Virus record (IMG/VR): IMGVR_UViG_3300024346_000139
Span: 1 to 43,816 of that record
Direction: 5' to 3' (one strand)
Length of the DNA stretch: 43,816 bases
From: a virus
Translations under genes and position numbers: made by a program
Notes under the pieces: model-generated
What the model was told of the DNA's origin: nothing
Database searches by the model: none
What the model saw: only the letters and a program-made list of their open reading frames with translations
Shown here: one piece after another, positions 499 through 43,816 of the stretch
Position numbering within the stretch: the stretch's first letter is position 1
How the letters are laid out: the number at the start of each line of letters is the position of its first letter

Positions 499-2160
499 AT
501 GAAACACTTCCATACATTCGAAAGCTTTAATTCTGCAGAGTCTAACATCTCTGCTGAAATCTTTGATATTCTAGAAGGCAAAGTCTCTATCGAAGAGATT
601 GAAGCAGTTATTGCTAGCACAACAGATGAGGGATTCTTTAGTTGGCTAAAGGGCATCTTCACAAACGGTAAGCAAAAGAGAGTTCTAGATAAGTATGCTG
701 ACGAACTTCTTAAGACTCTTATTAAGAAAGGTACACTAGAATTACAGGGTGATCCAACTGAGGAGTTGAGTGCTGAACTTGAAGCTGCTGAAGAAGGGGA
801 TGATATGTATGGATGGTCTGGTAACCCAGATGATGGAAGCAATGGATTTAGATCAAGAGCAAGTAGCAGTCCTTCATATTCACACAGTCCACATAAAGCT
901 CAATTAGATTTGCTAACTAACCAAGAACAAAACATCATTGAAGTGATGGATGAAATTGGTAAGGAGAGTGAGGTTCTTGGTAGATATGTTTCTAAGGTTA
1001 AACTTGAAGCTAAACTAAAGGCTACTGAGATGCTTATGAAGGTTGCCGATACTGAAGTTAAAAGAGTTCTTGGTAAGATAGTTAATAAGCAAAGAAAGCG
1101 TATTGCTCAAAACGATAAGGACCTTAAGGCAGCAGTTGATGCTTCTGAGTCATTAGTTATTGAGAAGGCTGAAGGAGATAGAGGTCCTATTGATAATCCA
1201 GATATCGAAACAGCTCTAAAGAAAAAGTCTGACGAAAGCGGTATTGCTATCGGCCTACTTCGTATTGTAATGAGAAGGGGCATGGACGCTTGGAACAGTG
1301 GCCACAGAGAGGGCATGGGTCAAGAGCAATGGGGCTATGCTAGAGTTAATGCATTTATTGAAAAGGGTAAAGGTACTTGGGGTGGAGCTGATAAAGATAT
1401 TGCTGCTGAAGTATCTGAGTCAACTGTCAACGAAGCTGAAGAAACTTATAACGATTACCCAGCAGCTGCTAAGGCAAATGCGAAGAAGGCTATCGAGTGG
1501 AAAGAGAAGTATGGCCGTGATGAAGTTACTGGCGGTACTGAAGTTGGTTGGGCTAGAGCTCACCAGTTGGCTAAAGGCGAATCACTATCGAAAGATGTAG
1601 TTTCTAGAATGGCTCAGTTTAACAGACACAGAAAGAATTCTGAAGTTGCTGCCGAGTTTAAAGATACTCCTTGGAAGGATAGAGGCTATATTGCATGGTT
1701 GATCTGGGGTGGTACTGAAGGCGTTGATTGGGCTATTGCTAAAATGGAAGAAATCAAAGAAGCTTACAATATCAATAAGTATTCGCCAATGTCTTATGCT
1801 AAGCAGATTGCATCAGGTGTAATGACTATGCAAGACGCAATGGAAGAAACAGGTCTACCATTTACAGAGCTAATGAAGCTTGTAAAGAAGATTGACAAAA
1901 ACTTCAAAATCAATTTTGAATCAAAGGATATGAAACACTTTAAAACATTTGAATCATTTGTTAACGAGGGCAGCCACAAAGAGGCTGAGAATATTGCAGA
2001 TCAAATCACTGGTCATATTCAAGATATGATCAACAATGACGAAGAGGTTGATGGCGCATATTACTTGGTGAAAGATTACTTCGAAGGAGACACTCGCAAT
2101 CCACTTTTTAATATGGTAGTCGACCTAGTTGGTAAGTGGATGAAAAAGAATAAAATCTAA
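499..2160 (+). CDS. Modular head-cargo protein with two capsid-targeting-like leaders
   Basis: 553 residues from ATG 499, chosen over the in-frame ATG at 478 because it follows the previous stop directly and gives the leader MKHFHTFESF. This resembles the T4 capsid-targeting leader MKTYQEFIAE of internal proteins. Visible modules: an acidic N-terminal helical part; residues about 248-302 with RRGMDAW...QWGYARVNAF, a motif I recall from marine phage proteins of unknown function (perhaps DUF5824); residues about 321-418 with GGTEVGWARAHQLA and WGGTEGVDWAI, also recalled from phage head-linked proteins; and a second leader, MKHFKTFESF, at residue 478 followed by a 66-residue tail. Modules are separated by SESLVIEKAE, SESTVNEAEE and FESKD. 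I infer a packaged cargo protein that may be cut by the prohead protease. Module names are from memory and uncertain. Confidence 0.8.
   Translation: MKHFHTFESFNSAESNISAEIFDILEGKVSIEEIEAVIASTTDEGFFSWLKGIFTNGKQKRVLDKYADELLKTLIKKGTLELQGDPTEELSAELEAAEEGDDMYGWSGNPDDGSNGFRSRASSSPSYSHSPHKAQLDLLTNQEQNIIEVMDEIGKESEVLGRYVSKVKLEAKLKATEMLMKVADTEVKRVLGKIVNKQRKRIAQNDKDLKAAVDASESLVIEKAEGDRGPIDNPDIETALKKKSDESGIAIGLLRIVMRRGMDAWNSGHREGMGQEQWGYARVNAFIEKGKGTWGGADKDIAAEVSESTVNEAEETYNDYPAAAKANAKKAIEWKEKYGRDEVTGGTEVGWARAHQLAKGESLSKDVVSRMAQFNRHRKNSEVAAEFKDTPWKDRGYIAWLIWGGTEGVDWAIAKMEEIKEAYNINKYSPMSYAKQIASGVMTMQDAMEETGLPFTELMKLVKKIDKNFKINFESKDMKHFKTFESFVNEGSHKEAENIADQITGHIQDMINNDEEVDGAYYLVKDYFEGDTRNPLFNMVVDLVGKWMKKNKI
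1930..1965 (+). repeat. Internal second copy of the leader-coding sequence
   Basis: The stretch around the in-frame ATG at 1930 repeats the start of the same gene at 499: both read TCAAAG, a few bases, then ATATGAAACACTT, and both encode MKHF-x-TFESF. The second copy could be the start of a separate 76-residue product, or a relic of two genes fused after loss of a stop codon. Confidence 0.6.
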
Positions 2161-2250: not shown

Positions 2251-3030
2251 ATGGCAAAACTAAAAACATTTGAAGAATACATCGCTGATATCGATTCTGC
2301 AGAAGAAATCGAGAAGGAGATCGTAGACATGGGTGAGCCAAAAACGGCTGAAGGCGGAGAGGACGTTGTGTCTGATGATCAACCTAAAGCTAAAGCGCCA
2401 GCTAAGTCAACTGACAAAGGTGCTGGTGAAGATGCTGAAGAAATGGAAGCAGACACCAAAGATGTTCACTCAGAAGAAGATAAAAAGATTGTAGATCCAG
2501 CAGATCAAAAAATGCCTGAAGATGAAGGCGAAGATGGTGCTGTTGAGGTTGAAGAGTCTGTAAGCGAGGAAGACGAAGAAGAGGAAGGCGACGAGATCGT
2601 TGACGAAATTCCTGGTGAAGACGGCCAAGTTGAAGCTGATGATGACGAAGAGGAATCTGATGACGAAGACGAGGGCGACGATGAGGACGAAGAGTCTGAA
2701 GAAGGCGAAGAGTCTGAAGAAGGCGAAAAGGAAGAAGAGCCAAGATTGGTTACTGATATTCTACAAGAAGCTTTCGGCATGATCAAGAACGAAGCAAAGG
2801 TTTGGGAAGAAGATGCACACGATACACATACTATCGAAGCATACCTTAACGAGAATGCTTCACTTCTAGCATCGATGGCTTGCAATACTCTTACAGAAAT
2901 GAAGAAGGATATTACACTTGAGCAATATGAAGCAGCGTGTAACGGTCTAAAAGAATCTTACTCTAAGAAGATCTCTGAAATGATCGAGTCTTTCGAAGCT
3001 GAAGGTGAAGTTATTTCTACAGAAGATTAA
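2251..3030 (+). CDS. Highly acidic prohead-core-like protein
   Basis: 259 residues starting MAKLKTFEEYIADIDS, again like a capsid-targeting leader. Residues about 95-165 are almost wholly Asp/Glu/Ser with tandem EEGEESEEGE units; residues about 168-250 form a helical domain with LVTDILQEAFGMIKNEAKVW. Extreme acidity plus a leader is what one expects of T4-type scaffold or core proteins (gp67, gp68, gp22), which are degraded during maturation. I could not match it to one of these. It has its own late promoter-like box at 2214 and is followed by a strong hairpin at 3061. The low-complexity part creates long open frames on the other strand that I regard as shadows. Confidence 0.75.
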   Translation: MAKLKTFEEYIADIDSAEEIEKEIVDMGEPKTAEGGEDVVSDDQPKAKAPAKSTDKGAGEDAEEMEADTKDVHSEEDKKIVDPADQKMPEDEGEDGAVEVEESVSEEDEEEEGDEIVDEIPGEDGQVEADDDEEESDDEDEGDDEDEESEEGEESEEGEKEEEPRLVTDILQEAFGMIKNEAKVWEEDAHDTHTIEAYLNENASLLASMACNTLTEMKKDITLEQYEAACNGLKESYSKKISEMIESFEAEGEVISTED

Positions 3031-37331: not shown

Positions 37332-37700
37332 ATGAAAACTTTTATCGAATACCTAGAATCAAATAAAATCACTGAGCAGGAGATGCACATTCTTAATGAA
37401 TCTCTAAACTCTGAGTGGACTCCTGAGCTTGAGGCTAAGGTTGATACTGCAATCGAGCAGTTCTTTGAGGAATTTAAAAATGAAGATGGTTCTTACGATT
37501 TCGATAGATTCAACGAAGAACTAACTAATGAGGGTCTTCTAGGTTCTATCCTAGGCGGTCTAACAGGTTTCGCACTAGGTAAGTCAGTTGGTAAGATTGT
37601 TGCCAAGGCACTAGGTGTTGAAAAAGGTATTTTCTATGATCTATTAACTTCAAGACTTGTAGGTGCTGCTCTAGGCGCTTCTCTTGGTAAGAATATCTAA
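37332..37700 (+). CDS. Leader-peptide protein with glycine-zipper C-terminus
   Basis: 122 residues. The start MKTFIEYLES closely resembles the T4 capsid-targeting leader MKTYQEFIAE. Possible prohead-protease sites of the T4 (I/L)xE kind follow: KITE (ends residue 15), ILNE (ends 23, followed by SLNSE) and ELTNE (ends 67). Residues 68-122 are a glycine-zipper region, GLLGSILGGLTGFALG, then GKIVAKALG and VGAALGASLG, which looks membrane-active. I infer a packaged protein that may release a membrane-inserting peptide. It is upstream of the RuvC-like gene by one base. No named family recognised. Confidence 0.7.
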   Translation: MKTFIEYLESNKITEQEMHILNESLNSEWTPELEAKVDTAIEQFFEEFKNEDGSYDFDRFNEELTNEGLLGSILGGLTGFALGKSVGKIVAKALGVEKGIFYDLLTSRLVGAALGASLGKNI

Positions 37701-42967: not shown

Positions 42968-43816
42968 ATGGAACGTATTCAATCATTTAAGTCTTTCTCA
43001 GACGTTAAAAAACAGCTAAAAGAGAAAGCTACACTTGAAGAAACAAATGTAAAAAGAGCAACTTCTGCCACTGCATTTGCTGAGCTTCTTAAAAAATACG
43101 AAGCGGCTACTATTGCTGACGTAACTGAAGACAAACTACAGGATTTCATGTCTGAATTAGTTGGTAATTTCAAATTCGAAAAGACTAACGAATCAGTTGA
43201 GACTATTAAAGAAGCTATGGGCATAGACCTTAGTCCTGAAGTTGCTGCTTCTATAGTAAAGAAATATGGTAATGAAAAATGGGGTGAGAGAGCCGGCTAC
43301 GGTGATCAAGAGGGTTACTATATCCTAAGATCCCTTGGTATTCAAATGGCTAAAGCTGCTGGTATTGATAAGGCGCCTGGTGATTTCGATTACCCATACT
43401 CAATCTACTTTGACGGCGGTAGTCTAGTCCTTGGTGATAAGACTGTTGGTCAAACAAGAGGTAAATCACTTGCTCAAGTTGCACAGATGTACACTGCTCT
43501 AGTTGGTAAAGCTCTTGCAGCTCTTGCTAAGAAAAACAAGTCTAACGAATCAGTTGAGGCTGAAGTTATCGAAGAAGGTAACAAGAATAGAGAAATGGTT
43601 GCTTCAGCCTGGATGAAGACTGGCATTAAAGACCTTAACGGTATTGCTAAACTTTATGCAGATGCAATGGAAGATGCTAATTTCCACCAAGAAATGGGTA
43701 CTTCTAAAGCTATCGGCTCTGCGTCAAGGGGCAAGGTTTCAGGTCTAAAGGGTTCTGATATCGCTTCAGCTGCAGGCTGGGATGGTTATGCAATCGCTAA
43801 CGGCACAGTTGATTTC
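42968..43816 (+). CDS. Leader-peptide head-cargo-like protein, 3' end cut by window
   Basis: 283 residues visible without a stop. It begins MERIQSFKSFSD, like the leaders of the genes at 499 and 2251, then a helical part and two domains separated by TNESVETIKEA (about residue 73) and SNESVEAEVIEEG (about residue 192). The middle module (KWGERAGYGDQEGYYIL, then DFDYPYSIYFDGGSLVLGD) and the last one (REMVASAWMKTGIKDLNGIA...SAAGWDGYAIANG) are unknown to me. I infer another packaged multi-domain protein. The two linker regions share a 17-base exact repeat. Confidence 0.75.
   Translation, partial: MERIQSFKSFSDVKKQLKEKATLEETNVKRATSATAFAELLKKYEAATIADVTEDKLQDFMSELVGNFKFEKTNESVETIKEAMGIDLSPEVAASIVKKYGNEKWGERAGYGDQEGYYILRSLGIQMAKAAGIDKAPGDFDYPYSIYFDGGSLVLGDKTVGQTRGKSLAQVAQMYTALVGKALAALAKKNKSNESVEAEVIEEGNKNREMVASAWMKTGIKDLNGIAKLYADAMEDANFHQEMGTSKAIGSASRGKVSGLKGSDIASAAGWDGYAIANGTVDF
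43185..43201 (+). repeat. 17-base direct repeat, copy 1
   Basis: CTAACGAATCAGTTGAG, encoding part of the (T)NESVE linker, is identical at 43542-43558. The copies lie 357 bases apart in the same frame. Confidence 0.7.
43542..43558 (+). repeat. 17-base direct repeat, copy 2
   Basis: Second exact copy of CTAACGAATCAGTTGAG, encoding the (S)NESVE linker before the last visible domain of the protein. Confidence 0.7.

Follow-up and report, generated by a model that had tools for sequence, protein, structure and literature searches.

Putative T4-like capsid-targeting leaders on unrelated and partly fused cargo proteins in a phage genome fragment and its relatives

The window, i.e. the whole stretch of viral DNA that was analysed (43,816 bases; IMG/VR virus record IMGVR_UViG_3300024346_000139), is a fragment whose genes include those for a T4-like tail and baseplate and for a UvsW-type helicase; protease, portal and capsid genes are absent from it. 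The nearest large relative that was found is the uncultured phage LR756500 (462 kb), of which about 65 kb are collinear with the window. For the tail genes, the Lak phages and phages of Bacteroidota come next after LR756500. A Pfam search of the window's nearest contigs, which are themselves fragments, detected no protease or capsid genes; both are present in LR756500.

All features of the window described below lie on the plus strand, and putative cleavage positions are marked by a slash. Positions 3 to 497 contain the C-terminal part of a modular protein whose gene is cut by the end of the window. Its homologues differ by whole modules between linkers; a full-length one of 425 aa, starting with MRKVQNLNEWLDAKNQIDEA, is encoded by L004 (L followed by a number denotes a fetched viral contig). 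Within positions 3 to 497, the linkers ...YIELDE/ARS (cut before nt 126) and ASESLLE/GG (cut before nt 351) were detected. The adjacent ORF (499 to 2160) comprises 553 aa if it starts with the ATG at 499, the point at which homology sets in; another in-frame ATG lies upstream at 478. It is composed of a pro-region and five modules. The pro-region (499 to 630) contains the degenerate leader MKHFHTFESF, in which the aromatic residues 7 and 10 are kept and Ile11 and Glu13 are absent, and extends to ASTTDE/G. In homologues, the end of this region reads VGE/GFF, LNE/GFF, LDE/GLF or VDE/GLF.

Module 1 (631 to 1164) begins with GFFSWLKGIF and exists as a stand-alone gene in L160, L105 and L074 (MKHIKLFEAFNN...). 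Module 2 (1165 to 1434), which follows the linker SESLVIE/K, is a DUF5824 domain that was found at seven loci (L149, L007, L010, L012, L102, L147 and L169) as a stand-alone protein of 112-114 aa with its own leader. The linker SESTVNE/A leads to module 3 (1435 to 1761), a PHROG 2859 domain whose stand-alone counterpart is a 127-aa leader gene in L143. AlphaFold models revealed four helices for module 2 (pLDDT 83.5) and an all-helical structure for module 3 (pLDDT 80.7), the latter folded from an alignment of the window and fetched viral-contig sequences only. A search of the PDB by sequence and by fold yielded no relatives of the two modules; both are predicted to form small helical domains for which no structural relative is known. 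In unrelated phages of haloarchaea, Roseobacter and Synechococcus, the PHROG 2859 domain is also part of ORFs whose annotation is prohead protease, portal, head morphogenesis or capsid protein. It was observed in ORFs of S-CBS3, CRP-823, HGTV-1 and HRTV-28, lying close to the N-terminus of the major head protein (836 aa) in S-CBS3. Module 4 (1762 to 1929; AYNINKYSP...) follows the joint EEIKE/A. As it precedes DUF5824 in L074 and L122, the module order there differs from that in the window. The next segment (1930 to 1968) is a complete leader, MKHFKTFESFVNE/G, which lies in frame and does not start a separate gene. It is followed by module 5 (1969 to 2157, 63 aa), a C-terminal module also present in L155, L091 and a 1247-aa polyprotein of L080. 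DUF5824 and PHROG 2859 are the only domains that were recognised in the ORF 499-2160, and no metallopeptidase domain was found in it. Positions 2162 to 2197 encode MKRFKGGHRGY and a stop codon, which correspond to both ends of a 104-aa leader gene with the interior deleted. This gene is intact in L004 and L005 (MKHFKTFESFINESYK...GGHRDY), and judging from its sequence the mini-ORF looks like an internal deletion remnant of such a gene.

Other leader genes are located at 2251, 37332 and 42968. The first of them (2251 to 3030) encodes a highly acidic protein of 259 aa with the leader MAKLKTFEEYIAD, and the motif TATAAATA lies upstream at 2218-2225. The cleavage position is occupied by Asp in the window and by Glu in some orthologues (MAKLKSFEQYVAE). 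Since Asp at residue 10 of the T4 leader blocks cutting and not packaging (PMC9026906), it would be predicted by analogy that the window protein is packaged yet uncut; it is a candidate core or scaffold protein. The gene at 37332 to 37700 codes for 122 aa and has the leader MKTFIEYLES with the spacing of T4. Its orthologues (MKTFxxYLxE) have the full motif and include MKTFNDYLVE, MKTFLDYITE, MKTFLELINE and MQTFNEFIGE, the window protein possessing Ser in place of Glu. A second conserved site in this protein, TNE/GLLGSILGG (cut before nt 37533), is followed by a glycine-zipper segment. The glycine-rich stretch behind that site (37533 to 37700; GLLGSILGGLTGFALGKSVGKIV) could be a membrane-active ejection peptide. 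At the right end of the window (42968 to 43816), the N-terminal part of another modular polyprotein with the leader MERIQSFKSF was identified, which continues in L015. It contains the linkers NESVETIKE/A (cut before nt 43214) and NESVEAEVIEE/G (cut before nt 43577). Its homologues comprise 550-855 aa, have ESVVNEA linkers and keep the leader as M(N/E)(K/R)IxSFKSF.

The original prediction had named five peptides as sharing a leader, MKHFHTFESF (499), MKHFKTFESF (1930), MAKLKTFEEY (2251), MKTFIEYLES (37332) and MERIQSFKSF (42968), and each of them was confirmed at its coordinate. The peptide at 1930 had been counted as the start of a gene of its own, which does not hold. It lies in frame inside the ORF 478-2160 (560 aa), at residue 478 counting from 499 or 485 counting from the ATG at 478, and is likewise fused in all close relatives (L003, L004 and L005), ruling out an independent gene. 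The notion of a leader common to the five peptides stood in part: it is supported by the aromatic pair and by the orthologues, whereas the full tetrad of the T4 leader is missing from the N-termini of the window. An aromatic pair at residues 7 and 10 was found in three of the 40 window ORFs compared to 0.44 expected. Among the N-terminal leaders of the window no complete tetrad was detected; solely the internal copy at 1930 has the full set. Because the N-terminal leaders of the window are degenerate at the cleavage positions, the evidence for these copies rests on their orthologues. Taken alone, the window thus gives a weak to modest leader signal, which becomes strong once the relatives are added. 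An association of each leader with a late promoter-like motif, as had been proposed, was dropped since TATAAATA precedes just one of the five (that at 2251) and is no commoner in the window than expected (3 versus 4.7).

Mutagenesis of the T4 internal protein IPIII revealed that residues 4 and 7 of the leader MKTYQEFIAE direct packaging, while residues 8 and 10 are needed for processing (PMC9026906). This tetrad (Y4, F7, I8, E10) recurs in relatives of the window three residues further in (MKHIKLFEQFINE/A). Its start position was scored with the pattern [FYW]xx[FYWH][ILVM]xE in ORFs that had not been preselected for a leader. Of the 678 ORFs of LR756500, 23 have the tetrad beginning at residue 7 (0.21 expected), and other N-terminal positions gave 0-1 ORFs each. 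The corresponding value for relatives of the window, i.e. contigs reached via cargo homology, is 26 of 342 ORFs (0.10 expected). These ORFs belong to 16 unrelated body clusters in LR756500 and to 21 in the window relatives. As both sets were unselected for the tetrad, they are free of search-pattern bias. For the contigs fetched by the leader pattern, the residues fixed by that pattern have to be discounted. Over all fetched contigs, 298 leader ORFs fall into 125 clusters of otherwise unrelated bodies. When 121 representatives were aligned, the consensus was MKHIKLFExFxNE without any conserved column past residue 13. Moreover, the 28 copies of the peptide MKHIKLFEQFINE have 24 different coding sequences, so it is the peptide that is conserved rather than the DNA. 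When viral contigs were scanned with the leader pattern, at least 120 stretches were found in the forward direction and none with the pattern reversed, and a stricter form had no matches in bacterial and archaeal genomes (257 Gb). The strict pattern was absent from the isolates PTm1 and pT24 and showed no excess in Lak-C1 and S-SSM7. The Microcystis phage Mel-JY01 was rejected as a leader carrier; a homologue of one cargo is present in this phage, the leader is not.

Most of the bodies behind the leaders had no family match. Among the recognisable cargo is Tad3, an inhibitor of Thoeris, which was detected in three phages with 69-80 bits; a leader start was seen in both of the two that were inspected. 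Other cargo includes a 2H phosphoesterase, a polynucleotide kinase 3'-phosphatase, a lysozyme and a zeta-like kinase, and further domains are ATP-grasp, GNAT, HD and cytidylyltransferase. The identity of one cargo with Acb1 was not accepted since its score was under the Pfam cut-off, and it is named only 2H phosphoesterase for this reason. The bodies have a median length of 138 aa (range 61-818 aa) and a median pI of 6.8, with 42% above pI 8. Hence, they do not share the small basic character that is typical, albeit not strictly defining, for the T4 internal proteins. As the latter block restriction enzymes (PMC12373910), it is plausible by analogy that part of the cargo acts early in counter-defence. 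In LR756500, eight leader ORFs (LR756500.1, at about 13.4-15.9 kb, 124 kb, 181 kb, 198-199 kb, 313 kb and 332 kb) form one related body cluster. Several resemble, by eye, leucine-rich-repeat (LRR) proteins, and the cluster might represent LRR effectors that are packaged.

Some cargo was found as a stand-alone leader gene in one phage and as an internal module in another, where it is joined at ESVVNE/A-like sites. The stand-alone and fused forms meet at the same residue, after [ILV]xE. For module 2, the fused sequence SLVIE/KAEGDRGP corresponds to FINEA/EKAKGDRGP in the stand-alone protein, for module 3, STVNE/AEETYNDYP corresponds to INE/AESYTDYP. Modules have been gained, lost and reordered among the window, L004, L005, L074/L122 and L080, and in L005 two additional modules are inserted at [ILV]xE joints. 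The 1247-aa ORF of L080 (5710-9453) contains about 11 modules with ESVVNE-type linkers, three of these modules being shared with the window ORF. Over all loci, [ILVM]xE was located at 84 of 109 internal joints (77%), a set in which some joints stem from ORFs with starts placed too far upstream and are no true fusions, compared to 18.7% of random positions. The linker motif xES[ILVFT][ILVT]?[NTD]E occurred 175 times, with up to 8 copies per ORF, versus 14 times in shuffled and 20 times in reversed proteins. By their sequences, the linkers look like leaders which have lost the targeting half and retained the cutting half. The presence of the cutting half only would fit a single N-terminal leader that imports the whole module chain. 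These internal cleavage-type linkers had escaped the original prediction and may be the more novel feature.

The head genes of LR756500 comprise a Peptidase_S77 prohead protease (226725-228623; E 2e-12), which adjoins a portal-like gene, and a Gp23-family capsid protein (E 2e-34). Homologues of the protease and capsid genes adjoin leader genes in L092, L118, L119 and L088. In L092, one leader gene is flanked by the portal and protease genes and two are flanked by the protease and capsid genes, and in L118, L119, L138 and L088 leader genes adjoin the protease gene. Since these contigs were fetched via the leader, co-occurrence alone is weak evidence and it is the adjacency that counts. Capsid proteins of several leader phages start with ...QLINE/AE, which is the same site as the leader end. 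In LR756500, the leader genes are dispersed and lie outside the head cluster.

From these sequence comparisons it is likely that the leaders represent an expanded version of T4-like capsid targeting and that the cargo is partly fused into polyproteins which the prohead protease should cut. There is a good probability that the leader directs proteins to the capsid in the way known from T4. The claim that unrelated multidomain proteins carry a T4-like leader is well supported by sequence, namely by the tetrad, its fixed distance from the start and more than 100 unrelated bodies; it also agrees with genes for a gp21-family protease and a capsid protein of the gp23 family in these phages and with anti-defence homologues among the recognisable cargo. 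Docking onto the prohead core would be mediated by the aromatic pair at residues 7 and 10 (4 and 7 with T4 spacing), the gp21-family protease would take off the leader by cutting after the Glu of [ILV]xE, and the freed cargo would be ejected with the DNA. Leader genes have probably been fused in frame, the linker between the modules having decayed to ESVVNE/A, in which the cleavage positions would be retained and the targeting positions lost. One N-terminal leader would then bring in the string of modules, to be separated by the protease within the head. We infer packaging, cutting and injection as well as functions in host takeover or anti-defence. On balance, it seems probable that T4-related huge phages possess capsid-delivered polyproteins of up to about 11 effector modules which share one leader and are separated by the protease at ESVVNE/A leader remnants. 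The format is analogous to that of animal-virus polyproteins, here for packaged effectors.

It is conceivable, though rather unlikely, that a cleaved capsid-targeting leader is combined with internal linkers that are merely flexible acidic-serine stretches of polyvalent multidomain proteins, whose delivery would be in the intact form or after processing by a different enzyme. According to PMC5512222, polyvalent phage proteins have 2-15 domains and were proposed to be processed by their own metallopeptidase domains, and some multidomain phage proteins, e.g. the virion RNA polymerase of N4, are packaged uncut. However, the high frequency of hydrophobic-x-Glu at the module joints (77% versus 19%), the similarity of the linkers to the leader end and the fact that modules join where the leader ends in stand-alone genes speak against this reading, as does the lack of a detectable metallopeptidase domain in the window ORF.

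The N-terminal motif might also dock the proteins to a target other than the capsid, e.g. a chaperone or a compartment for replication or assembly, without any role in packaging. The dispersed leader genes of LR756500 would be in line with such a localisation tag, which is nevertheless distinctly improbable because the motif matches those T4 residues that direct packaging and cleavage, is position-specific and conserves the cleavage Glu. In addition, a gp21-family protease is present, leader genes lie amid portal, protease and capsid genes (L092) or beside the protease gene (L118, L119 and L138), and one module was found in head ORFs of unrelated phages. A translation-initiation element acting at the mRNA level or a recently duplicated 5' end could account for a motif that is A/T-rich and situated at the start codon. 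This explanation is very hard to reconcile with 24 distinct DNA sequences for 28 copies of the same peptide, with the end of conservation at residue 13, with the complete in-frame internal copy at 1930 and with linkers that keep the cleavage half. Chance similarity among short charged N-termini could be considered for the window alone, where the aromatic pair is limited to three ORFs out of 40 (0.44 expected), but is already refuted by the position-specific enrichment in the relatives and by the orthologues, leaving it a negligible probability.

The leaders resemble those of the T4 proteins IPI-IPIII (MKTYQEFIAE, cut by gp21) in that a short N-terminal aromatic-xx-aromatic-[ILV]-x-Glu sequence precedes unrelated bodies. 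Further similarities are the gp21- and gp23-family proteins in the leader-bearing phages and the anti-defence cargo, T4 internal proteins inhibiting GmrSD and Tad3 homologues being present here. On the other hand, the leader described here is mostly three residues longer and occurs on more than 100 cargo families, with 23 leader genes in one phage. The cargo is not generally basic, reaches about 800 aa and is in part fused to chains of several modules with linkers of the cleavage type. The polyvalent proteins known from phages and conjugative elements are also large, shuffled, modular multidomain proteins that are thought to be delivered with the DNA; for these, the passages of PMC5512222 that were consulted report a proposed processing by built-in metallopeptidases and describe neither a capsid-targeting leader nor prohead-protease linkers. 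The inner-body and ejection proteins of ϕKZ and SPN3US are similar as head-internal jumbo-phage proteins that are cut after Glu by a gp21-related protease, and one protein pair shares an identical 15-residue N-terminus. They differ by long propeptides (often >100 aa), the motif AxE/SxE (here the slash separates alternatives) and the lack of modular polyproteins. An expansion of a leader to more than 100 cargo families or a polyprotein format was not found in the papers searched (open-access text, preprints excluded).

If the proposed capsid delivery is correct, a signature of 13 residues would flag, from sequence, more than 100 families of head-packaged and probably injected proteins of huge phages, the majority of them of unknown function and some being anti-defence homologues. 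Thereby, 'hypothetical proteins' of huge phages would become ranked candidates for early effectors and counter-defence factors. The packaging tag of T4 would be part of a widespread delivery system having its own polyprotein format, and candidate tags and cut sites would be available for loading proteins into large phage heads.

At the DNA level, the far-T4 spacing was enriched in LR756500, LR756501 (735 kb) and LR756502 (642 kb), the T4 spacing in LR756501. In LR756501.1, 19 T4-spaced pattern matches (e.g. at 238741, 268430, 604837 and 540510) were counted (control: 2), which makes it probable that the tag is also present in the largest phages. T4 itself gave three matches, ipII, ipIII and gp61.1. 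The product of the latter (19130-18966) begins with MKTFKEFIKE, which fits the capsid-targeting tetrad, and gp61.1 is possibly an unrecognised internal protein of T4.
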